DNA of 52,511 bases from Candidatus Levyibacteriota bacterium (GTDB lineage: Bacteria > Patescibacteriota > Microgenomatia > Levybacterales > UBA12049): the NCBI GenBank assembly GCA_016199085.1, contig JACQHJ010000008.1, positions 1 to 52,511 of the forward strand, given 5' to 3'. Positions 4,570-52,336 of the stretch are shown here, one piece after another; position 1 is the stretch's first letter, and every line of letters begins with the position of its first letter. Position numbers and translations under genes: made by a program. The notes beneath the pieces are model-generated. The model searched no databases. It saw only the letters and a list, made by a program, of their open reading frames with translations, and had not been told where the DNA came from.

Positions 4570-6807
<2,238 letters not shown>

Positions 6808-6810
6808 AAT

Positions 6811-8334
6811 TTAAACTTTAAACATTTTCTTAAATTCTAAAATGCTTTTATCAATTTTTTTAAGTAGGTCTTCGCTTGGTTTTTGGCCGTTATCTAAAGT
6901 ATCGATAATATTTTGATATTTTCTCTTCATAAACTCATGGTACTGATTCTCAAAACGTAAAATTGCCTCAAGTGGGGTATCATCAAGACTTCCGCTGGTT
7001 GCAAGATAGATACTTAAGTATTCCAGTCCTTCGGAAAGAGGTTGGTATTGCGGTTGTTTTAGGATTTCGATTGTTCTTTTGCCTCTTTCAAGCTGCTTTG
7101 AGGTTTCTTCGTCAAGTTCTGAGCCAAACTGGGCAAAAGCAGCCAAGTTGTTGTATTGGGCGATCTCAAGTCTCATCTTGCTCGCGACTGATTTCATTGA
7201 AGAAGTCTGGGCTGCTCCACCGACTCTTGAAACAGAATTGCCAGGATCAATAGCTGGCCTAATTCCGCTATAGAAAAGATCTGTCTGGAAGAAAATCTGC
7301 CCGTCGGTTATGGATATGACATTGGTTGGGATATAGGCCGAGAGGTCGTTTGCCTGAGTTTCAATAATGGGAAGAGCTGTAATTGAGCCGTTTCCGTTTT
7401 GCTTATTCATCTTAACCGCTCTTTCCAAAAGTCTACTATGAAGATAGAAGATGTCGCCGGGATATGCCTCGCGTCCCGCAGGTCTTCTTAAGACCAAGCT
7501 GATCTGCCTGTATGCCCAGGCGTGTTTTGTTAAGTCGTCATAGACTACCAAAACGTCGTTTCCTTTTTCCATGAAATATTCGGCAATAGCTACTCCTGCA
7601 TATGGAGCAAGATAGAGAAGGGAAGCAGCATCAGATGCGCTTGCGACAACTATAGTTGTATAGTCTATTGCTCCTGTTTCTTTGAGTTTTTCAACAACCT
7701 GGGCGATTGTACTTTGTTTTTGACCGATGGCTACGTAGACGCAGTAAACGGGTTTTTGTCCTTTTTTGTGAGTCCCCTTTTGGTTTATGATTGCATCGAT
7801 TGCAACTGCGGTTTTTCCCGTACCCCTGTCTCCGATAATTAATTCTCTTTGTCCTCTTCCGATTGGGATCATTGCATCAATTGGCTTAATGCCCGTTTTT
7901 AAAGGAGTATTAACAGGTTCTCTTTCAACAACTCCTGCCGCAATTTTTTCCAAAGGCATGTCTTTTCCTTTTTTAATTTTCACTTTTCCGTCTTTTGTTT
8001 CACCTAAGGGATTTACGACTCTTCCTAAAATATCTTCAGAGACGTTGATTGATAATAGCTTTCCTGTCTTTTTAATTTCGTCGCCTTCTTCTATGTGATC
8101 CGACTTTTCCAAAGCAATGATAGAGACGCTGTCTTCGTCAAGGTTTAGAACTGTGCCAAGGGTTTTATCAGAAAACTCAACTAGTTCTCCCATTTGGGCA
8201 AGGGAGAGCCCGGTTGCAACAATAACACCGTCGGTGTTTTTAACAACACGTCCGACGTTTTTGACCTCTAATCTTTGGTCAAAAGATTCAAGCTTTTTCT
8301 CAAGACTTTTAATTATTTCATCAGGATTTTTCAT
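6811..8334 (-). CDS. atpA: ATP synthase F1 subunit alpha
   Basis: A 507-residue non-catalytic nucleotide-binding F1 subunit. The N-terminal beta barrel covers about 25-95. The P-loop is GDRGTGKT at 168-175; the usual GDRQTGKT has Gln where this protein has Gly. PAIDPGNSVSRVGGAAQ is the classic alpha/beta signature. The extreme N-terminal helix that docks onto the delta subunit is present (DEIIKSLEKKLESFDQR). It lies between atpH and atpG with gaps of 7 and 3 bp. Confidence 0.98.
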   Translation of the reverse strand: MKNPDEIIKSLEKKLESFDQRLEVKNVGRVVKNTDGVIVATGLSLAQMGELVEFSDKTLGTVLNLDEDSVSIIALEKSDHIEEGDEIKKTGKLLSINVSEDILGRVVNPLGETKDGKVKIKKGKDMPLEKIAAGVVEREPVNTPLKTGIKPIDAMIPIGRGQRELIIGDRGTGKTAVAIDAIINQKGTHKKGQKPVYCVYVAIGQKQSTIAQVVEKLKETGAIDYTTIVVASASDAASLLYLAPYAGVAIAEYFMEKGNDVLVVYDDLTKHAWAYRQISLVLRRPAGREAYPGDIFYLHSRLLERAVKMNKQNGNGSITALPIIETQANDLSAYIPTNVISITDGQIFFQTDLFYSGIRPAIDPGNSVSRVGGAAQTSSMKSVASKMRLEIAQYNNLAAFAQFGSELDEETSKQLERGKRTIEILKQPQYQPLSEGLEYLSIYLATSGSLDDTPLEAILRFENQYHEFMKRKYQNIIDTLDNGQKPSEDLLKKIDKSILEFKKMFKV

Positions 8335-45186: not shown

Positions 45187-45213
45187 TAGGCAAAATATAA
45201 AACACAAATTAAG

Positions 45214-45471
45214 TTACTGGCGTGCTTGAAGTTTTGATTTCACCTCTTGGTTAAATGAACTGTACCATCCTTCAAAGTCCGCTTGTTTTCTTTCAATGTT
45301 TGAGAATTTACTTTTATAGATAGATTGGTTTTTGGAAATAATTTGATTAAATTCATTAAAATTATTCTCGATGTTGCTTAGTTTTGTCGAAAGAACAACA
45401 AAAAGAATTGCTATTGCTGCAAATGAGAGTATTGAAATGTAAAACCCGATAATTCCTAACTTTGACTCCAT
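45214..45471 (-). CDS. Small membrane protein with coiled coil
   Basis: 85 residues: one N-terminal membrane helix (about 7-28, rich in I, F, A) followed by a polar helical region with heptad-like spacing (LSNIENNFNEFNQIISKNQ and onward). Family not recognised. An AAAGGAG site precedes the ATG. It lies 11 bp downstream of another 85-codon gene on the same strand, so it is probably the second gene of an operon. Confidence 0.6.
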   Translation of the reverse strand: MESKLGIIGFYISILSFAAIAILFVVLSTKLSNIENNFNEFNQIISKNQSIYKSKFSNIERKQADFEGWYSSFNQEVKSKLQARQ

Positions 45472-45482
45472 AATACTCCTTT

Positions 45483-45740
45483 CTAAGCAGTCCTCATTCT
45501 TGGTGAGGATACAATGAGAGGTCTAACAAGTGTTCCTCCGCCGATTGGAACTAACCTTCTTGGTATAGTCGTCGCTACGTATACCACAGGATTTCCTTCT
45601 TGGGGTGTCGATCTTTTGTGAACAACCGTTGCTTCTACTCTTGCTCTTTTTTCATTTGGTCCTTGAAAGTATATGACAACATCTGTTCCCAGGCTTACTG
45701 TTCTTACTTTTTTAAATTCTCCCTGTCTTCTTTCCGGCAT
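45483..45740 (-). CDS. Hypothetical ORFan, arginine-rich
   Basis: 85 residues, probably a small beta-rich protein (VRTVSLGTDVVIYFQG, ARVEATVVHKRS, VVYVATTIPRR). No family recognised. The promoter at 45749-45777 (TTGACA-17-TGaTAATAT) ends 8 nt before the ATG and strongly supports the gene. Arg exceeds Lys about threefold. Confidence 0.6.
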   Translation of the reverse strand: MPERRQGEFKKVRTVSLGTDVVIYFQGPNEKRARVEATVVHKRSTPQEGNPVVYVATTIPRRLVPIGGGTLVRPLIVSSPRMRTA

Positions 45741-45748
45741 AGTCGAAG

Positions 45749-45777
45749 ATATTATCAGACTAATAATAACTTGTCAA
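45749..45777 (-). promoter_or_regulatory. Promoter of the 45483-45740 ORFan
   Basis: Minus strand: TTGACA (45772-45777), 17 bp, TGaTAATAT (-10 at 45749-45754), 8 nt to ATG. Confidence 0.7.
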
Positions 45778-45781
45778 TTGA

Positions 45782-46339
45782 TTAAGGTTTTATAAAGTTT
45801 GAAGCGGTTATTACAAGCAAAACTCCAATGGTATTAAATATAAATGAAATTATAATAAATTTATAAACCTTTACTTTTGATATTCCAAGCAAACTTACTC
45901 CGATTTCATCAGGCAGGGGAGAGGCAATAATAAAGGCACCAATCACAGGCAGAGTCCAGCTGAAGTATTTTGTGTGCAAAACGTGATTAATATGATTTCC
46001 CCCTAATCTTTCATAAATACCGTCAATTTCTTTTACCAAATCATCTTTTACAAATTTATATATCGTCAAGTCTCCAAGTACTGCTCCCAAACCAGCTAGT
46101 ATCCCTAGTTCTATGGGAGAAAGTGTTTCGGCAAGAATAAGTAAAATTACGGTCGCAGTTGCAACGGTAAATGAAGACGTAAAAAAAATTCCGGCAATAA
46201 AACCACCTATGTAACCTAATTCTCCAAAACGAAGTAGGAAAGTATGGAATTGTTCGGATCTTGAAAGAATCAGTGCAAAAACAATGGAAAGGAAAAGAAA
46301 AGTCAGGTTTCTATATTTCCAATGTTTTAATAAGTACAT
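45782..46339 (-). CDS. Multi-pass membrane protein, VTT/DedA-like
   Basis: 185 residues with about five hydrophobic segments. GELGYIGGFIAGIFF and LGAVLGDLTIYKFVKDD, then IGAFIIASPLPDEIGVSLLG, recall the VTT/DedA fold (the GD.. and PLPDE motifs in place of FxRxxP), but similarity is weak and the protein differs from the DedA at 30.1-30.7 kb. A TGcTATAGT box ends 6 nt before the ATG, so it is predicted leaderless. Function unknown; lipid or small-molecule transport is a guess. Confidence 0.65.
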   Translation of the reverse strand: MYLLKHWKYRNLTFLFLSIVFALILSRSEQFHTFLLRFGELGYIGGFIAGIFFTSSFTVATATVILLILAETLSPIELGILAGLGAVLGDLTIYKFVKDDLVKEIDGIYERLGGNHINHVLHTKYFSWTLPVIGAFIIASPLPDEIGVSLLGISKVKVYKFIIISFIFNTIGVLLVITASNFIKP

Positions 46340-46353
46340 GTATTTACTATAGC

Positions 46354-46372
46354 AAAATATTTGTAATATTTT
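46354..46372. repeat. Inverted repeat in a divergent intergenic region
   Basis: AAAATATT-tgt-AATATTTT, perfect 8-bp arms, 15 nt upstream of the start of the VTT-like gene. Possible operator; AT-rich, so chance is not excluded. Confidence 0.35.
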
Positions 46373-46387
46373 AAATAAACTATATAC

Positions 46388-46401
46388 TTAATGATCATTA
46401 A
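46388..46401. repeat. Perfect 14-bp palindrome in the same intergenic region
   Basis: TTAATGATCATTAA, between two divergent genes, 9 bp before the -35 box of the plus-strand gene. Possible operator. Confidence 0.35.
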
Positions 46402-46409
46402 TCCTATAG

Positions 46410-46438
46410 TTGAATTCAGGACTTTTGCATGCTAATAT
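46410..46438 (+). promoter_or_regulatory. Promoter of the 46445-47077 gene
   Basis: TTGAAT (46410-46415), 17 bp, TGcTAATAT (-10 at 46433-46438), 6 nt to ATG. Predicted leaderless. Confidence 0.7.
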
Positions 46439-46444
46439 GTAACG

Positions 46445-47077
46445 ATGTCTGAGCTGATTGGTAAAAATCCCAAGCTTCAACCAGAATATTGGGAAGGAAA
46501 AACAATCCATGATGGTGGAGAATTAACTGATTATCCTGAATATGGAAAAGGCGAAATTGCCTTTGCAAGAGAGTCAGTAAGGGCCGTATTGGGCAATCCG
46601 CCATTCGCAATTCCCCACGAACCGGTTGCAATCTTTGAACATGGCACAACTTTTGACTCCTCTGCTTATCAACCAGGTACAGTCGTAAATCTAACCGTAG
46701 AATCATTAATAGGTCCCTTAGGCAACAATTTAGCGTTGTTTATTAGAAAGTACTGGGCATCTGTAGTGAAATCTAAGGACAAGGCTCCAGGCCCAGAATC
46801 CCTTTTAATTGGATTCAACGAATGGGTTGAGCATGTTGGATATAGCAATCGAGAAGTTAGAAGAATGAATTATGGAATAAGTCCCGTCCCTTTCCCCGTA
46901 AGTTTTAGGATTGGGGAAATTTGGAGAGACCAAGTTTCAAGTGTTGGAAATATAGAAGAGCTAAGGAAAGCTACTAGACTTGAGGTAATTGCCGTAGGTC
47001 AACAAGTAAAAAGAGATGTTAGAGAAAGAAATCCTCTTAGGAGACTACGACTCGTTCCATCTAGGTTTTCGGCTTAA
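46445..47077 (+). CDS. Hypothetical ORFan
   Basis: 210 residues, soluble, no recognised family. Aromatic and Pro-rich N-terminus (LQPEYWEGKTIHDGGEL), a middle with ESLIGPLGNNLALFIRKYW, and a basic C-terminus (RNPLRRLRLVPSRFSA). The promoter placed 6 nt before the ATG supports expression as a leaderless mRNA. It ends 21 bp from the convergent ORFan at 47099. Confidence 0.6.
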   Translation: MSELIGKNPKLQPEYWEGKTIHDGGELTDYPEYGKGEIAFARESVRAVLGNPPFAIPHEPVAIFEHGTTFDSSAYQPGTVVNLTVESLIGPLGNNLALFIRKYWASVVKSKDKAPGPESLLIGFNEWVEHVGYSNREVRRMNYGISPVPFPVSFRIGEIWRDQVSSVGNIEELRKATRLEVIAVGQQVKRDVRERNPLRRLRLVPSRFSA

Positions 47078-47098
47078 TTGTCATTAGAGACAGTGGAA

Positions 47099-47587
47099 TT
47101 ATTCTCTTTCTACTCCTCTTCCGAAGTCCTGAGCAGTCTCGGTTCCCATTAGAGTTGGTATAACCATTCCGTTCTCAATAGTTACTAATCCTGCATCAAC
47201 CATCATATCAGCCCATGATTTAATAGGTAATAGCTCAAAAGCATCTTCCTCTGTCGCTTGAAATACTTCGTTTAGCTCTCCACAGAATGCTTCAGAAACT
47301 TCATGTGCAGCTAAATAACTGTCAGGATGTGCTTCGCTGTATAAGCTGGATGCAGAATCACGCAACATTCCTGCTGCAAGAGGATAAATATGGTCAAAAT
47401 CTCCCGCATCTACTGTTCCGGCCCATTCTTCGGATATTCTGTATCTTTGTTGAAATTCCTGTCGTAATCCAGTTTGTAGTGTGGTGTCAAAAAGAATTAA
47501 GGCTCCTGAATTACCAGACTGCTCTACTCTTGTACGAACTTGTCCTAAAAATTGAGGCAATGGTATTTCTCTGTTTTGAAGTGTCAT
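47099..47587 (-). CDS. Hypothetical ORFan, acidic and lysine-poor
   Basis: 162 residues, acidic, with a single lysine and about nine arginines; no recognised family. Segments such as HIYPLAAGMLRDSASSL and YLAAHEVSEAFCGELNEVF predict helices. A promoter (TTGACA-17-TATTTT, 47597-47625) lies 9 nt upstream of the ATG. The composition is unlike the lysine-rich core genes of the window. Confidence 0.6.
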   Translation of the reverse strand: MTLQNREIPLPQFLGQVRTRVEQSGNSGALILFDTTLQTGLRQEFQQRYRISEEWAGTVDAGDFDHIYPLAAGMLRDSASSLYSEAHPDSYLAAHEVSEAFCGELNEVFQATEEDAFELLPIKSWADMMVDAGLVTIENGMVIPTLMGTETAQDFGRGVERE

Positions 47588-47596
47588 TCAAGTAAC

Positions 47597-47625
47597 AAAA
47601 TAGCACCTAACAAATACTTTGTCAA
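47597..47625 (-). promoter_or_regulatory. Promoter of the 47099-47587 ORFan
   Basis: Minus strand: TTGACA (47620-47625), 17 bp, TATTTT (47597-47602), 9 nt to ATG. Confidence 0.65.
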
Positions 47626-47640
47626 CGATAATCTGATTAG

Positions 47641-47716
47641 TCTGGTTCAGCAATCTAAGCATCACTTAAATTTGTACCGCCAAATGCTTAGGAATTGGAA
47701 CCAGATATTGAATCTC
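47641..47716 (+). repeat. Dispersed repeat copy R1 with imperfect palindrome
   Basis: The core TTTGTACCGCCAAATGC and GGAATTGGAACCAGATA (47671-47707) matches copies R2-R4. In this copy the core is the right arm of an imperfect palindrome: TCTGGTTC (47641-47648) with GAACCAGA (47698-47705), and TAAGCAT (47656-47662) with ATGCTTA (47684-47690). The ATG at 47684 opens a 50-codon frame beginning MLRNWNQILNLL. Beyond about codon 14 that frame is antisense to the nucleotidyltransferase gene. Confidence 0.75.
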
Positions 47717-47726
47717 TTAGCTTATT

Positions 47727-48179
47727 TTAAAAGTCGTCATTTTCCAGTTTCCATTCCTCAACTACATGAGAGTCTCTTGCGACAAAAGGAGATTGTGAAT
47801 GCATTCGGTAATAATGGCTTCTCTCGCTTGGTGTAAGAAGCTCACTTTTAATTGTGGCTCTAATATCTACTGTTAATCCACTTCTCCTGAATGCTGCTGT
47901 TACGCGTCTATATCTTCTGCTTCCCCAACCTGTTTGCCACTCTCCTCCATTAAATATTATATCTAAGTCTATATCCTCTCCATCTTCATATGTTCCTTTT
48001 GCATAACTTCCGCCTAGAGTAAACGCGTCTATAGATGGAATACTAGTAAGCAATGCAGCTAATATTGTAGGAACCGTTAGATAGATAGAGTGTCGACTTT
48101 TATTGTGATACCCTGCAATATATAAATGCGTTTGTTCTACGTCTGGAATTTTCCGTTTAGTTCTGTGTTCAGGCGACAT
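47727..48179 (-). CDS. Minimal nucleotidyltransferase-like protein (Pol beta superfamily)
   Basis: 150 residues. The motif TLGGSYAKGTYEDGEDIDLDI (residues 54-74, split as LGGSYAKG and EDIDLDI) is the GS...DxD signature of the nucleotidyltransferase superfamily. A later VDIR may give the third carboxylate. It could transfer a nucleotide to protein or RNA, or be part of a toxin-antitoxin MNT system, but no HEPN partner is next to it. The promoter TTGAAA-17-TAAAAT (48187-48215) ends 7 nt before the ATG (leaderless). Flanked by repeats R1 and R2. Confidence 0.7.
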   Translation of the reverse strand: MSPEHRTKRKIPDVEQTHLYIAGYHNKSRHSIYLTVPTILAALLTSIPSIDAFTLGGSYAKGTYEDGEDIDLDIIFNGGEWQTGWGSRRYRRVTAAFRRSGLTVDIRATIKSELLTPSERSHYYRMHSQSPFVARDSHVVEEWKLENDDF

Positions 48180-48186
48180 GGAGCAT

Positions 48187-48215
48187 ATTTTAACTCAAGA
48201 AAACTTTAATTTCAA
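48187..48215 (-). promoter_or_regulatory. Promoter of the nucleotidyltransferase-like gene
   Basis: Minus strand: TTGAAA (48210-48215), 17 bp, TAAAAT (48187-48192), 7 nt to ATG. Predicted leaderless. Confidence 0.65.
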
Positions 48216-48226
48216 ACTATAGGGCT

Positions 48227-48294
48227 GAGCACCCCAAATGTTTCAGAATTGGAACGAGATACGAGTTTCGCTGGAGAAATGGAAAGAACTTTAA
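48227..48294 (+). repeat. Dispersed repeat copy R2 / micropeptide frame
   Basis: GAGCACCCCAAATG then TTTCAGAATTGGAACGAGATACG. The ATG at 48238 gives an 18-residue frame, MFQNWNEIRVSLEKWKEL, ending at 48294. It aligns in frame with R3 and R4, with several synonymous differences. It lies upstream of the promoter of the first PurM-like gene. Confidence 0.7.
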
Positions 48295-48314
48295 ATCCCA
48301 ATCCGCAGCAACTT

Positions 48315-48343
48315 TTGACTTTAACTAAATTAGATATTAGAAT
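48315..48343 (+). promoter_or_regulatory. Promoter of the first PurM-like gene
   Basis: TTGACT (48315-48320), 17 bp, TAGAAT (48338-48343), 13 nt to the ATG at 48357. The predicted leader is about 7 nt, which supports the internal ATG over 48249. Confidence 0.65.
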
Positions 48344-48356
48344 CATTTATATCTTC

Positions 48357-49367
48357 ATGTCTATCACTTACCAAAAATCGGGAGTAAATTATAACCTCAT
48401 GGATCAGTTTAAAAACGCCTGTATAAAAGCTGGAAATAATTCTCCTCAATTAATAGAAATTCATGATTATTATCTAATTGATGTTCTTGAAGGACTGGGT
48501 AGTTTAGGCAAATTAGCTGATGATATTTATAAGCTAACTGGCAAGGACTACTATTATGAGGTGGGTTGGGGAAATGCAGCAACCGTAATAAACGATCTAA
48601 TATCCATAGGAGCTACTCCTTTAACATTAAAGCTATTCGTTGCAGCAGGAAATGAAAAATGGTTTGGAGATAAAAAGAGATGGAAGAATTTAGTTAAAGG
48701 CTTTAAGGATGCCGCAAACTACTCAAAAGCATTATGGAATGGCGGCGAAACCCAAACATTAGTAAAAGTTGTCTCTCCAGATTCTATCGTCTTAGCAGGG
48801 TCAGCTACTGGTATTGTAAAACCAAAGAGTTGGTTAATAGACGAAAACAATATTAGGGAAAACGACGATATCATATTTTTCAAAAGCTCTGGCATTCACA
48901 CAAACGGCGTCACCTTGATAAGAAAGCTATTTCAAAACAACGGAAAAACCCTAATAAAAGTAATTGAGCAGAAGACTATAATTTATAGCCCAATAATACT
49001 TAAGATTTTAAAAAATAATATAAAAATTCATTTCGCAACCCACATTACAGGTCATGGGTGGCGTAAGATTATGCGGCCTAAAAAGAATTTTGTTTACAGA
49101 ATAGATGAGATACCAACTCCTCCAGAAATTTTTAAAATTATTCAAACCAAAGCAAGTTTATCCGATTTACAAATGTATTCAGATTTTAATATGGGCGTAG
49201 GATATGCAATATTTGTTTCCCAAAAAGATACAAAGAAAGTATTAGAAATTGCAAGAAACTTGAAATTTAATGCATTTGCTGCTGGAAAAGTTGAATCAGG
49301 AGAAAGAAAAGTAATTATAGAACCATTGAATATTACCCTAGAAGGTAAATCTTTAAAAATAAGATAG
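48357..49367 (+). CDS. PurM-like (AIR synthase-related) protein 1
   Basis: 336 residues from the ATG at 48357. The open frame to 48249 crosses repeat R2 and the promoter, so it is not used. YQKSGVNYNLMDQFK (PurM N-terminal ATP-site segment), VINDLISIGATPL, GGETQTL, SSGIHTNGVTLIRKL and the C-terminal GHGWRKIMRP with YSDFNMGVGYAIFV follow PurM (phosphoribosylformylglycinamidine cyclo-ligase) in order. True PurM activity is uncertain. By eye it has about 38 Lys and 9 Arg, unlike its tandem paralog. Flanked by R2 and R3. Confidence 0.8.
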   Translation: MSITYQKSGVNYNLMDQFKNACIKAGNNSPQLIEIHDYYLIDVLEGLGSLGKLADDIYKLTGKDYYYEVGWGNAATVINDLISIGATPLTLKLFVAAGNEKWFGDKKRWKNLVKGFKDAANYSKALWNGGETQTLVKVVSPDSIVLAGSATGIVKPKSWLIDENNIRENDDIIFFKSSGIHTNGVTLIRKLFQNNGKTLIKVIEQKTIIYSPIILKILKNNIKIHFATHITGHGWRKIMRPKKNFVYRIDEIPTPPEIFKIIQTKASLSDLQMYSDFNMGVGYAIFVSQKDTKKVLEIARNLKFNAFAAGKVESGERKVIIEPLNITLEGKSLKIR

Positions 49368-49375
49368 TTTTAAAC

Positions 49376-49485
49376 GAGTACCCCAAATGTTTATGAATTG
49401 GAACCAAATACGAAGCTCGCTTAAAGCATGGCATGCGTCATTAAACCCTAGCTTTAACTCGAGACGATCATATGCTATAAAGTAA
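49376..49485 (+). repeat. Dispersed repeat copy R3 / micropeptide frame
   Basis: GAGTACCCCAAATG then TTTATGAATTGGAACCAAATACG. The ATG at 49387 opens a 32-codon frame beginning MFMNWNQIRSSLKAW and ending at 49485. It starts 9 nt after the stop of PurM-like 1. Confidence 0.7.
49473..49481 (+). promoter_or_regulatory. Extended -10 promoter of the second PurM-like gene
   Basis: TGcTATAAA (-10 at 49476-49481), predicted leader about 23 nt with AGGA 8 nt before the ATG at 49512. No clear -35. Confidence 0.4.
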
Positions 49486-49511
49486 CTACCTTAAGCTAAT
49501 AGGACTAAGTC

Positions 49512-50627
49512 ATGACAAACGAAAACCGATCAATTACTTATGCATCTACAGGAGTTAATTACGATGCCATGGATCCTATTAAAAGATTTGCTCAAATGGC
49601 GGCAAGAACCACTTCAGGAAACTTACGAGATTTAGGTTTTCAAGAACTTGAAGCAAGTAGAGGAGAGTCAGCCCATGTTATTGATGTTGGTCCATTTTAT
49701 CTTGCAACAGTAATGGAGGGATTAGGAACGAAAAATCTTGTTGCTGACGCAGTAAGAAGCGATAAAGAGCCATCCTTTTATAACAAAATAGCACAGGATA
49801 CTGTAGCGATGATAGTTAATGATTTAGTTGTCGTTGGTGCTAGACCAATGGTAGTAAGTGCATACTGGACTGCGGGAAGCGGAGACTGGTTTGAAGATGA
49901 AACAAGATCCAGGGAATTAGCAGAAGGATGGGCTAATGCTTGCAATAAGGCTGAAGCAATCTATGGAGGGGGTGAAACACCCACCCTTAAAGACATTATT
50001 AACCCTGGGACAGTAGATTTAGCTGGATCTGCAGTAGGGATCATTCAACCTAAGAGTAGACTTACATTAGGAGATAGAATTGCAGAAGGCGATAGGATTA
50101 TTTTAGCTCCGAGCTCAGGGATTCATGCTAATGGACTTACCTTAGCAAGAAGAATTGCTTTAGAAATTGCTGATGGATATAACACCAGATTATCTGATGG
50201 TAGAACCTATGGAGAAACCCTACTACAACCAACTCCAATATACGCCAAATTAGTACGAGAGCTTTTTGATGCAGGAGTTGACATTCATTATATGGTTAAT
50301 GTGACTGGACATGGCTGGAGGAAATTAATGAGAGCTACAAAAGATTACAAATATGTCATTGATGCTATACCTCAAGTACAACCAGAGTTTGATTTTATTA
50401 AGGGACATTCAGGCAATACCCTAGAGGAAATGTATGGAAATTTTAATATGGGCGCAGGATTTGCCTTTTTTGTTCCCGAACATGCAATGGAAAGAACTTT
50501 AGCTATAGCAAAAACCAGAGCATGTATTAATTTATTAAATGCAGGGGTCATTGAACCTGGACCGAAAGAAGTTGTAATAAATCCTGTTGGAGTAAGTTTT
50601 AAAGGAGAATCATTAAGTGTAAGATAA
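49512..50627 (+). CDS. PurM-like (AIR synthase-related) protein 2
   Basis: 371 residues, paralogous to the preceding gene over the whole length: ASTGVNYDAMDPIKRF, MEGLGTKNLVADA, MIVNDLVVVGARPM, GGGETPTL, SSGIHANGLTLARRI, TGHGWRKLMRATKDY and GNFNMGAGFAFFV. These are the PurM ATP- and substrate-binding segments. It resembles PurM more closely than the first copy does (GLGTKNL matches PurM GVGTK). By eye 15 Lys and 22 Arg. No other purine-biosynthesis gene is in the window, so the pathway role is open. Flanked by R3 and R4. Confidence 0.82.
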   Translation: MTNENRSITYASTGVNYDAMDPIKRFAQMAARTTSGNLRDLGFQELEASRGESAHVIDVGPFYLATVMEGLGTKNLVADAVRSDKEPSFYNKIAQDTVAMIVNDLVVVGARPMVVSAYWTAGSGDWFEDETRSRELAEGWANACNKAEAIYGGGETPTLKDIINPGTVDLAGSAVGIIQPKSRLTLGDRIAEGDRIILAPSSGIHANGLTLARRIALEIADGYNTRLSDGRTYGETLLQPTPIYAKLVRELFDAGVDIHYMVNVTGHGWRKLMRATKDYKYVIDAIPQVQPEFDFIKGHSGNTLEEMYGNFNMGAGFAFFVPEHAMERTLAIAKTRACINLLNAGVIEPGPKEVVINPVGVSFKGESLSVR

Positions 50628-50652
50628 TCCTGTCATAACAATCTAATCTTCA

Positions 50653-50747
50653 ATTTTGTACCCCAAATGTTTCAGAATTGGAATCAGATACGTAAAAATT
50701 TGGAAAAGTGGAGAAGTATTCTTCAACTCGTGCCTAACATCTCTTAG
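50653..50747 (+). repeat. Dispersed repeat copy R4 / micropeptide frame
   Basis: TTTTGTACCCCAAATG then TTTCAGAATTGGAATCAGATACG. The ATG at 50667 opens a 26-codon frame beginning MFQNWNQIRKNLEKWRSIL and ending at 50747. Upstream bases TTTGTACC are shared with R1. Confidence 0.7.
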
Positions 50748-50799
50748 ACTTTAACTGCCAAAGTGGATTAAAAATTGTTAAAAGCCCAGGAAATATTAC

Positions 50800-51237
50800 T
50801 TATTCTATGTAGGAAAGCCTTTGTCTTCTTGTTACTCTATAAGCGGCAATGCTTTTCCATAAATCACTTATTTCATTATCTAAATTGTCAGCGGTCCTAA
50901 AAACATCACGAGTTCGCCATGCTTCACCAGGAATAGAATATTCTACAGCAGATAATCTTCTATCGTAAGCGAGAGGCTCCAATGTTCTAACTAATAATGT
51001 ATCTTTTTCAGCTTGATCCCTAGCTGGTTCTAAATCAATTATGTCATCAACGACACGCATAACTGTTTGACCAACTTGGCTTTCAGACATGCCTTTTCTC
51101 TCCAACCTCCCTTTAATATCTCTAACTTCATCAAGCACTCTTACTAATTTCGTCCTATCTTCGATACCAGTATAAGTAACGACAACACCAGTACGTAGCA
51201 TGCCCGAGGGTAAAGGCTCTCCAGTTTCTGGACGCAC
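50800..51237 (-). CDS. Hypothetical ORFan, 3' part of a frameshifted gene
   Basis: A 145-residue frame starting at a GTG (51237) that is probably not the true start. The same frame stays open without any ATG, GTG or TTG for another 60 codons upstream (to 51417) and reads like protein (LVQINELIPIGNL, then ADGLTQAGLGTYSYAVA). A promoter and ATG in the other frame lie at 51455. The intact product would be about 218 residues, Arg-rich, with a helical middle (DRTKLVRVLDEVRDIKGRLE). No family recognised. Located between R4 and tRNA-Glu. Confidence 0.55.
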   Translation of the reverse strand: MRPETGEPLPSGMLRTGVVVTYTGIEDRTKLVRVLDEVRDIKGRLERKGMSESQVGQTVMRVVDDIIDLEPARDQAEKDTLLVRTLEPLAYDRRLSAVEYSIPGEAWRTRDVFRTADNLDNEISDLWKSIAAYRVTRRQRLSYIE

Positions 51238-51556: not shown

Positions 51557-51564
51557 AAATAATG

Positions 51565-51638
51565 TACCGCCAAGGGGAGTCGAACCCCTGATTCTCTGGC
51601 TGAAAACCAGATGTCCTAGGCCACTAGACGATGGCGGC
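51565..51638 (-). tRNA. tRNA-Glu (anticodon TTC)
   Basis: Minus strand cloverleaf of 74 nt: acceptor GCCGCCA with TGGCGGT (one wobble), anticodon arm TCTGG-TTTTCAG-CCAGA with TTC, T arm AGGGG-TTCGACT-CCCCT. CCA is not encoded (3' flank CAT). An 11-bp sequence covering its 3' end (51563-51573) recurs in repeat R1. Confidence 0.96.
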
Positions 51639-51676: not shown

Positions 51677-52336
51677 CTATTTAAGTCTTTTTCTTAAGTT
51701 TTCCAATATGTCTTTAGCTGTATCCTGTCCGCCGAGTCCGAAAGCTATTCCTCCAGCCACTGCCACCATTGCAACAAGCCCTGTAAACAAGATTCTTATT
51801 AAATCGGTTGCTACTCCAAGCTGGCTTAAGACGGCAAGGATAACAAATACGTTTATTGCCCATCTGACAGCCGAAGCAACTGTTGTTGATGTTTGACTGT
51901 CAACTCCTTTGACAGATGCCAAAACTATGTCATGCGCAATTCTGGCAAAGACAAATCCAACTATTGCAATTACCGCTGCTACAAAGACATTGGGAAGATA
52001 GAATAACACTTCATTTAAAACAGTAATTATTCTAGGTAATCCCCAAACGTCTGCTGTTGGAACAAGGAAAACTAAGATAACAAACCATCTTGCAATCTCT
52101 GCAAGTATATTTGTCCATGTCAATTCATCCTTTAATTCCGGAACTCCGTATTTTTTAAGATATGTTTCCACTCTTAAAGCTTTGGAGCCGCTTATAACTA
52201 TTTGTTTTACCAAGGATCCTACTATGACACCGATTATCAAAATGATTGCTCCTGTTAAAAACCTTGGAATGAAGGAAACCGTTGCGTAGAAAGCATTATT
52301 AAAAGATGCAACTAAGGTTGTACCAATATCGGTCAT
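51677..52336 (-). CDS. Mechanosensitive channel-like membrane protein (TM-helix repeat)
   Basis: 219 residues with five to six hydrophobic segments. FIPRFLTGAIILIIGVIVG, LPNVFVAAVIAIVGFVFAR and the C-terminal LVAMVAVAGGIAFGLGGQDTAKDIL are typical of the TM-helix (PF05552-like) and MscS pore region: the Gly/Ala-rich helix ending GLGGQD. The cytoplasmic beta and vestibule domains of full MscS are missing. The ATG has an AAAGGAGGTGA site. Probably a small osmotic-stress channel or a related membrane protein; gating is not demonstrable. Confidence 0.8.
   Translation of the reverse strand: MTDIGTTLVASFNNAFYATVSFIPRFLTGAIILIIGVIVGSLVKQIVISGSKALRVETYLKKYGVPELKDELTWTNILAEIARWFVILVFLVPTADVWGLPRIITVLNEVLFYLPNVFVAAVIAIVGFVFARIAHDIVLASVKGVDSQTSTTVASAVRWAINVFVILAVLSQLGVATDLIRILFTGLVAMVAVAGGIAFGLGGQDTAKDILENLRKRLK

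Follow-up and report, generated by a model that had tools for sequence, protein, structure and literature searches.

Which kind of sequence lies between the genes of a small accessory island in a Candidatus Levyibacteriota genome, and how did these genes come to stand there? The question is raised by a stretch of 52,511 nucleotides (assembly GCA_016199085.1, contig JACQHJ010000008.1, positions 1 to 52,511), hereafter called the window. An original prediction made from this sequence alone had noted four direct copies of a repeat of about 37 bp, each lying between genes, and had taken them for a cassette-like array or a small mobile or recombination unit. This idea was supported when the window was compared with its relatives, and we consider it likely that the repeat is the distal end of small, mostly one-gene integrative cassettes which insert at the 3' ends of tRNA genes.

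The repeat is the outer third of a longer element

All four copies were found on the plus strand, at about 47671, 48227, 49376 and 50653, as originally described. A search of the window with the core pattern CCAAATGNTTNNGAATTGGAANNA, allowing up to three mismatches, gave exactly these four matches, while 100 dinucleotide shuffles of the window averaged 0.05 matches and never exceeded one. The predicted absence of other copies from the window was borne out by the same search, and none was found elsewhere in the genome (939,047 bases, 10 contigs, 94% complete), where a similar pattern retrieved the four copies and one unrelated match with three mismatches at window position 1489.

Alignment with relatives revealed that the 37-bp core is real and forms the outer third of a conserved unit of about 117 bp, here named E. 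Its outer end is GTACCCCAAATGTTTNNGAATTGGAACCAG and its inner end is a second conserved block, TTAACTACCATTAGGGATTAGAA. The cores of the four copies (c1 to c4, Table 1) all fall between genes, as had been stated, but the inner part of c1 overlaps the 3' end of the nucleotidyltransferase-like gene. The outer tip of c1, GTACCGCCAA (47674-47683), repeats the final 10 nt of a tRNA-Glu gene (TTGGCGGTAC). This gene, a minus-strand tRNA-Glu(TTC) lying beyond the predicted array with its 3' end (51564) pointing toward it, is the key feature of the locus. The tRNA anchor, the repeat of the tRNA end, the true length of the element and a coding-like signal within E were missed in the original prediction because they lie outside the span that it described or are visible only with relatives.

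Two alignments of E (A1 and A2) and two sequence-only models (R1 and R2) were built from relatives. At an E-value of 1e-4 or less, R1 detected the element in 16 of 82 genomes of the order and R2 in 23 of 373 genomes sampled from the class; the carriers belong to the Microgenomates families f1, f2, f5 and f10, with weak matches in f8 and f42. The core pattern was present in eight named records, four of them Levybacteria/Levyibacteriota; a Rickettsia record (L025) was rejected as a carrier, matching the pattern only. Viral contigs carried no E (12 loose matches in one search fail the model), a phage collection gave no match, and plasmids gave a single chance match (E-value 8). Arrays in one orientation and at about gene spacing were found in genomes G000 (four copies), G035 (three) and G339 (three), and arrays of two copies in G018, G334, G281, G084, G075:C58 and G270; of these, copy two of G334 and of G270 and copy three of G035 match weakly (E-values 0.004-0.009). 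The phylogeny of E is weakly resolved, with 25 of 32 inner branches open, and too weak to date transfers.

Several further observations were made on E itself. Palindromic sequences resembling repetitive extragenic palindromes (REP), named by eye and of differing types, occur in several genera at about one spot inside E, between GAATTG and GAACC (Table 1); the spot may attract insertions repeatedly, or a hairpin may be tolerated there. Divergent E-like matches at L072, L073 and L143 all have TGTGGACATT ahead of the core, and the one at L143 lies just before an IS200-like transposase.

E lies mostly downstream of tRNA genes in one orientation

The tRNA genes around 33 E loci were located with ARAGORN on the fetched stretches; the divergent weak loci L072, L073 and L143, none of which has a tRNA in the stretch examined, were left out of this count. 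At 22 of the 33 loci a tRNA lies within 2.5 kb and E is downstream of it in one fixed orientation, the anchors being 19 tRNA-Glu, two tRNA-Lys(CTT) and one tRNA-Arg(TCT). For tRNA-Glu within 2.5 kb, the position on the cargo side and antisense to E was found at 19 loci and each of the other three configurations at one. Five tRNA-Lys(TTT) genes on the cargo side and in the sense orientation are part of the conserved neighbourhood of a channel gene. Overall, E was found at tRNA-Glu(TTC), tRNA-Glu(CTC), tRNA-Lys and tRNA-Arg.

The channel gene (PF05552) and tRNA-Glu(TTC) form a pair that is conserved in the family, where the two genes adjoin. None of 37 further family loci of this pair carried E at an E-value of 1 or less, and tRNA-Glu was found in 35 of them; these loci were drawn from genomes not known to carry E there, and some are short. 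As in additive flexible genomic islands, variable cassettes thus occupy a conserved chromosomal place, the channel-gene/tRNA-Glu locus, with differing contents.

The outer tip of E follows the end of the neighbouring tRNA

The longest tRNA suffix contained in an E tip averaged 4.43 nt, compared with 3.18 nt after the tRNAs had been permuted among loci, and none of 20,000 trials was as high (permuted maximum 4.40; 24 loci, 35 E). When the best tip per locus was used the mean was 4.75 nt against 3.28 nt permuted (maximum 4.54). This 24-locus test takes wide tips directly from the DNA and provides the figure of reference; it omits, from 26 tRNA-bearing loci, G021:C7 and G227, which have no outer end. 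Earlier tests with 19 and 21 loci agree with it. The first of these was also without G014, G334 and G045:C68 and had a shortened G084 segment, and the next version had that segment lengthened by hand. In tRNA orientation, GGGTCAC ends both the E tip and the tRNA-Glu in G045, G075:C54 and G018, while a GGCTCAC tip stands beside tRNA-Lys in G021, a GGGGTAC tip beside tRNA-Arg in G276 and a GGTAC tip beside many tRNA-Glu(TTC).

At E loci, 7 of 26 tRNAs had an exact repeat of at least 10 nt of their 3' suffix downstream of them, compared with 3 of 33 at control loci. None was antisense, and none lay upstream of 22 testable tRNAs, all at E loci. Only three loci have such a long repeat behind or among E units: the window (10 nt, at c1), G045 (17 nt) and G018 (14 nt). 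Since long suffix repeats occur with and without E, these tRNAs are integration sites with or without the element.

Two side observations concern these tRNA ends. At L188 (+122), L198 (+353), L207 (+367), L130 (+114), L135 (+111) and L136 (+133) the tRNA is followed by a segment of 0.1-0.4 kb that contains no E and has 15-21 nt of the tRNA 3' end repeated at its borders; these segments are probably other small integrants at the same tRNAs. At L133 (G122), a 13-nt tip repeat, GGTACCGAGCGAT, together with a 34-nt stretch further on, recurs behind the tRNA and behind E (6266-6310 and 7855-7945), as if two cassettes shared a left end. A search for a left-end motif in the cassettes gave nothing clear.

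The origin of E from a decayed tRNA-Glu was also tried and not retained. The E consensus beats all 1000 shuffles for two of three tRNA-Glu, while the third gave p=0.27; it also matches tRNA-Arg (0.023) and tRNA-Asp (0.045) weakly, and the registers differ. From this sequence comparison the derivation is a suggestion.

Insertion breakpoints and changing cargo

Alignment of G035 and G060, two members of the same genus, showed 94% identity over 90 nt through the tRNA to its final base, and similarity returned upstream of obgE (PF01018), after 2.3 kb in G035 and 0.77 kb in G060. In G031, 7 nt separate the tRNA from the stop codon of a convergent gene of 183 aa that lies behind it. The 185-aa homologue of this gene in G014 lies directly behind E, and two open reading frames (ORFs) plus E intervene before the tRNA; read from these alignments, G014 carries a cassette inserted at the tRNA 3' end, the tip of its E having decayed since. 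Insertion exactly at the tRNA 3' end, a further hallmark of additive islands, is thus seen in both pairs and fits 22 of the 33 loci.

In G227 a gene coding for a C39 peptidase, followed by E, stands behind tRNA-Glu(TTC); in G270 such a unit stands behind tRNA-Glu(CTC). They share 70% identity (495/706 nt) from the 3' half of the TTC tRNA into E, and in G270 this tRNA half is a remnant lying 6 nt behind the intact CTC tRNA. The remnant indicates that the C39 unit moved with a piece of its former target, so that recombination may take place farther inside the tRNA than would be judged from the tip. The crossover may fall within the final 5-10 nt of the tRNA or deeper, in the T-arm.

Gene content between the copies varies among relatives while E stays, and gene order differs as well, as a mobile unit leads one to expect. 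Cargo differs at tRNA-Glu(TTC) among G000, G035, G339, G334 and G281. The units are mostly single-gene, with about 0.5-1.3 kb per cassette in the window. Pfam matches (E-value up to 0.01) were obtained for 17 of 30 scanned E-adjacent proteins: HAD hydrolases (four), acetyltransferases (two), methyltransferases (two), SDR, RpiB, HbpS-like and SLOG proteins, a C39 peptidase, a zeta toxin, an AAA protein, a weak HicA and one twin-arginine translocation (TAT) signal only.

Tyrosine recombinases in E-bearing genomes

Of 73 family genomes, 70 have PF00589, as do all 21 genomes analysed that carry E; the latter gave 46 matches, none of them at an array. Only in G122 and G138 is a match on the contig of an array, at a distance of more than 160 kb. 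A single PF00589 protein, of the type of about 288 aa seen across the family, is present in each of G035 (98% complete) and G021 (97% complete). As no PF00589 lies at the arrays tested, the enzyme would be supplied in trans, now or formerly, or would be one of those found.

The possibility that E is the tail of an integrase gene overlapping the attachment site was rejected, the C-termini of the candidates being unlike the E peptide by eye (motif filter; 17 ORFs in 16 of 20 regions of one set, three in 3 of 20 of another). A resolvase-family protein (PF00239) lies about 2.2 kb from the excluded weak locus L073. At tRNA-Glu(CTC) in G013 (L171) a prophage-like element has its integrase behind the tRNA and contains no E. 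There, at L171:7960-9293 (G013:C4), a truncated tRNA-Glu (by eye) is followed by the intact tRNA-Glu(CTC) and a protein of 355 aa whose PF00589 match is just under the cut-off, so that the element seems to have brought its own tRNA-Glu. An ORF of 384 aa at L175:8772-9968 (G095:C41) matches PF00589 and overlaps a tRNA-Thr gene at the 5' part of the latter.

A model for the array and the evidence against it

The cassette model is built on the location and orientation of E, the agreement between tip and tRNA, the breakpoints, the variation in cargo and the presence of one cassette at two tRNA loci, all of them read from sequences. A cassette would consist of cargo plus E, with E at its distal end. 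It would enter by site-specific recombination at a tRNA 3' end, usually that of tRNA-Glu, and push the previous neighbour away; because insertion displaces the neighbour, E would sit at the former place of the tRNA 3' end, its tip repeating that end. Repeated entry at the tRNA, or at a tRNA-mimicking E tip, would give a stack in one orientation, tRNA-gene-E-gene-E-gene-E, growing by accretion beside the tRNA, and E may be able to act as a secondary attachment site. The recombination would be carried out by a tyrosine-type integrase supplied in trans by a phage, a helper element or a former resident.

A number of results weigh against this model. At 11 of the 33 loci no tRNA was found in the expected configuration: two of these have a tRNA-Glu 5-8 kb off, two have one in the other orientation (G045:C43 and G084), and seven have no tRNA in the stretch examined, three of them with at most 1.1 kb of contig left. 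The E loci are moreover not independent, since related genera share the same tRNA. Tips match poorly in c2 (2 nt), G088 (2), G281 (2) and G334 (3 and 2), those of c3 and c4 match the tRNA by 5 nt, and in G014, the clean insertion case, the decayed tip matches by 0 nt. The long repeats of G334, G138 and G276 lie 111-133 nt behind the tRNA and before the first E, and that of G272 is a second tRNA-Glu-like gene. None of the 33 loci showed a recombinase at its array, serine recombinases being outside the survey. Neither an excised circle nor polymorphism within a population came to light in the comparisons, which are all between species, and the conserved reading frame in E is left unexplained.

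Other explanations of E

This reading frame is the ground for another explanation, possible though short of probable, in which E either encodes a small protein of about 30-37 aa (MFxNWNQIRxSLxxWKxIL...) or is the orphaned end of a larger gene from a mobile element. It would have been carried along, or have been duplicated in the vicinity of tRNA genes, and the repeats would be copies of a gene and no recombination sites. The frame of the core ATG has 9 stops in 630 codons, compared with 41/630 and 45/629 in the other plus frames (35 copies), and in a second set of 32 copies it has 12 stops against 36-64 in the other five frames and a mean of 36.4 (minimum 16) in shuffles. Changed codons score +0.33 by BLOSUM (null maximum -0.13) and the synonymous fraction is 0.21 (null maximum 0.16; 200 column permutations in each case). 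The column-identity phase test was modest (p=0.03), and the codon changes are not independent events because the copies are related. Against this reading, 8 of 35 copies and 10 of 32 in the second set have stops in this frame, further copies are frameshifted or have no ATG, and both DNA ends of E are conserved whatever the frame. A hidden Markov model search of the fetched loci gave no ORF above 88 aa among the best 120 matches, weak matches in longer ORFs were chance-like where checked (a 252-aa ORF in G171), and no larger conserved gene containing E, of which the copies could be coding parts, was found. The peptide has no relative in Pfam, NCBIfam or PHROGs and no convincing one in PDB. A small gene also leaves the agreement of tip and tRNA and the insertion breakpoints unexplained. 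A coding E is nevertheless compatible with the cassette model and does not exclude it, and the peptide may serve as a small recombination factor or represent the tail of a gene since lost. A doubtful extension of the cassette model is that Microgenomates possess an integron-like capture of their own, with tRNA-Glu as platform and an outside recombinase, in which captured genes bring the tRNA-mimicking site E encoding a recombination peptide. E would then be a portable secondary site, and the short peptide or protein tail would act while mobile.

The mostly single-gene units with one site each, in the same orientation within arrays and with accessory and toxin-like cargo, recall an integron, in which E would be attC and the array a cluster of attC sites lacking an integron integrase (CALIN). 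We regard this as very improbable: the RYYYAAC/GTTRRRY core pair occurs in 0 of 39 E copies (shuffled mean 0.4), 15 single-strand folds (seven RNA, eight DNA) gave z-scores of -1.60 to +1.30 and no attC-like hairpin, no PF00589 was found at the arrays tested (no IntI-specific model was run), and the anchor is a tRNA 3' end instead of attI. A non-autonomous transposon (miniature inverted-repeat transposable element, MITE) favouring sites near tRNA genes and bracketing resident genes by chance would agree with the partly complementary ends CCCAAATG/CATTRGGG, seen by eye only, and with the seven loci that have no tRNA in the stretch examined. It is an unlikely source of E, as the bracketed genes are accessory and vary between relatives, insertion brings cargo (G014 compared with G031), and the tip tracks the tRNA end and not a random target duplication. 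That c2 and c3 end 14 and 2 nt ahead of start codons could point to a structured RNA or regulatory leader, but E has no Rfam match, no covariation in RNAalifold and fold z-scores around 0, and many copies face convergent genes, which makes such a function scarcely credible.

Gene content of the window island

The features of the window are listed in Table 1. The island had been described as one of ORFans, but one gene is nucleotidyltransferase-like and two belong to the AIR synthase/PurM family. The two PurM-like paralogues (48357-50627) share 35% identity, and the second has homologues scattered patchily over the class, in 82 of 281 genomes. The protein encoded between c4 and the tRNA gave no family match above the cut-off, and PADLOC gave no match for five window proteins. 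Similarity of the window to G060, G035 and G014 returns near 45199, and before obgE there is another difference of two genes; the island therefore spans from the tRNA to about 45199, i.e. past c1, and no recognisable E was found in its remainder.

Table 1. Coordinates of the features of the window and of palindromes within E at other loci.
Feature	Position	Strand	Evidence and remarks
E copy c1, partial and degenerate	47674..47765	+	R2 match 47679-47765, 28.9 bits, model 4-101/116
E copy c2, full length, outer tip GCACC	48229..48342	+	R1/R2 72.5/62.2 bits
E copy c3, full length, outer tip GTACC	49378..49509	+	R1/R2 69.8/59.7 bits; end placed by alignment, model matches stop at 49503/49502
E copy c4, full length, outer tip GTACC, closest copy to tRNA	50658..50773	+	R1/R2 72.3/64.4 bits
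tRNA-Glu(TTC), anchor and putative primary insertion site	51564..51638	-	ARAGORN, Rfam RF00005
Cargo, nucleotidyltransferase-like protein, 150 aa	47727..48179	-	PF01909, E-value 1.8e-5
Cargo, PurM/AIR-synthase-related protein	48357..49367	+	PF00586/PF02769; TIGR00878 below its cut-off; start ATG 48357 chosen by us, listed ORF begins at 48249, inside c2
Cargo, second PurM/AIR-synthase-related protein, 371 aa	49512..50627	+	profile matches
Cargo between c4 and tRNA, 145 aa (listed GTG start; 133 aa from ATG)	50800..51237	-	ORF
Remainder of the tRNA-Glu island past c1, five genes	45199..47673		blastn of tRNA-to-obgE regions
Mechanosensitive-channel-like flank gene	51677..52336	-	PF05552; backbone, outside the array
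REP-like palindromes in E	L068:4942-5075, L019:9302-9444, L135:8130-8271, L139:7349-7485, L130:529-692, L061		

Relation to known systems and significance

Stacking of cassettes at tRNA genes is already known. In the additive flexible genomic islands of Alteromonas, Ca. Actinomarinales and Ca. Methylopumilus, the cited passages describe a conserved tRNA as the cassette target, with part of its 3' end repeated at the cassette ends and sizes down to 330 bp (PMC4119200, PMC7771536, PMC10872708). There the repeat is a tRNA fragment only (20 and 52 nt are named), whereas here it is short, 5-10 nt, and the cassette ends in a conserved coding-like element of about 117 bp common to several families. 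A tmRNA version is described for Dehalococcoides, where ssrA islands stand in tandem behind the RNA gene, are bounded by repeats of its 3' end and have a conserved motif beside the repeat, and 15 of 31 are without an integration module (PMC3146451). By that account the target is tmRNA, the motif has 15 bp and 16 islands have a serine-recombinase module (PMC3146451), while our arrays have tRNA-Glu, tRNA-Lys and tRNA-Arg as targets, the 117-bp element and no integrase seen at them. Tycheposons, cargo elements of streamlined genomes, are likewise tRNA-anchored, but are given as 4-200 kb with a tyrosine recombinase (PMC10872708); here the cassettes have about 0.5-1.3 kb and no element-borne tyrosine recombinase was found. 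Xer-dependent pdif modules have two-arm XerC/XerD sites of about 28 bp as their borders.

With integrons and CALINs the array shares mostly single-gene cassettes, one site each, one orientation and a recombinase possibly in trans; unlike them it has no attC core, no hairpin and no tyrosine integrase at the array, and it is anchored at a tRNA. The array thus works like an integron but is none, and belongs with the tRNA-targeted additive islands. No account of such arrays was found for Levybacteria or Microgenomates, nor in the titles and abstract openings of the papers listed for the Candidate Phyla Radiation (CPR)/Patescibacteria. What is new, as far as our searches reach, is that the cassettes end in a conserved coding-like element, that this element occurs across several families, and that cassettes in CPR mostly have a single gene.

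Genomes of the CPR are tiny, and their route of accessory gene gain is poorly known. If the cassette model is true, diverse cargo (toxins, HAD hydrolases, acetyltransferases, nucleotidyltransferases and PurM-like enzymes) would be tied to one vehicle, which raises the question of which recombinase moves the cassettes in genomes such as G035 and G021, where the sole tyrosine recombinase found is of the family-wide type. A fixed entry port for single genes, tagged by 117 bp, would then allow cassette pools to be mined across uncultured Patescibacteria.

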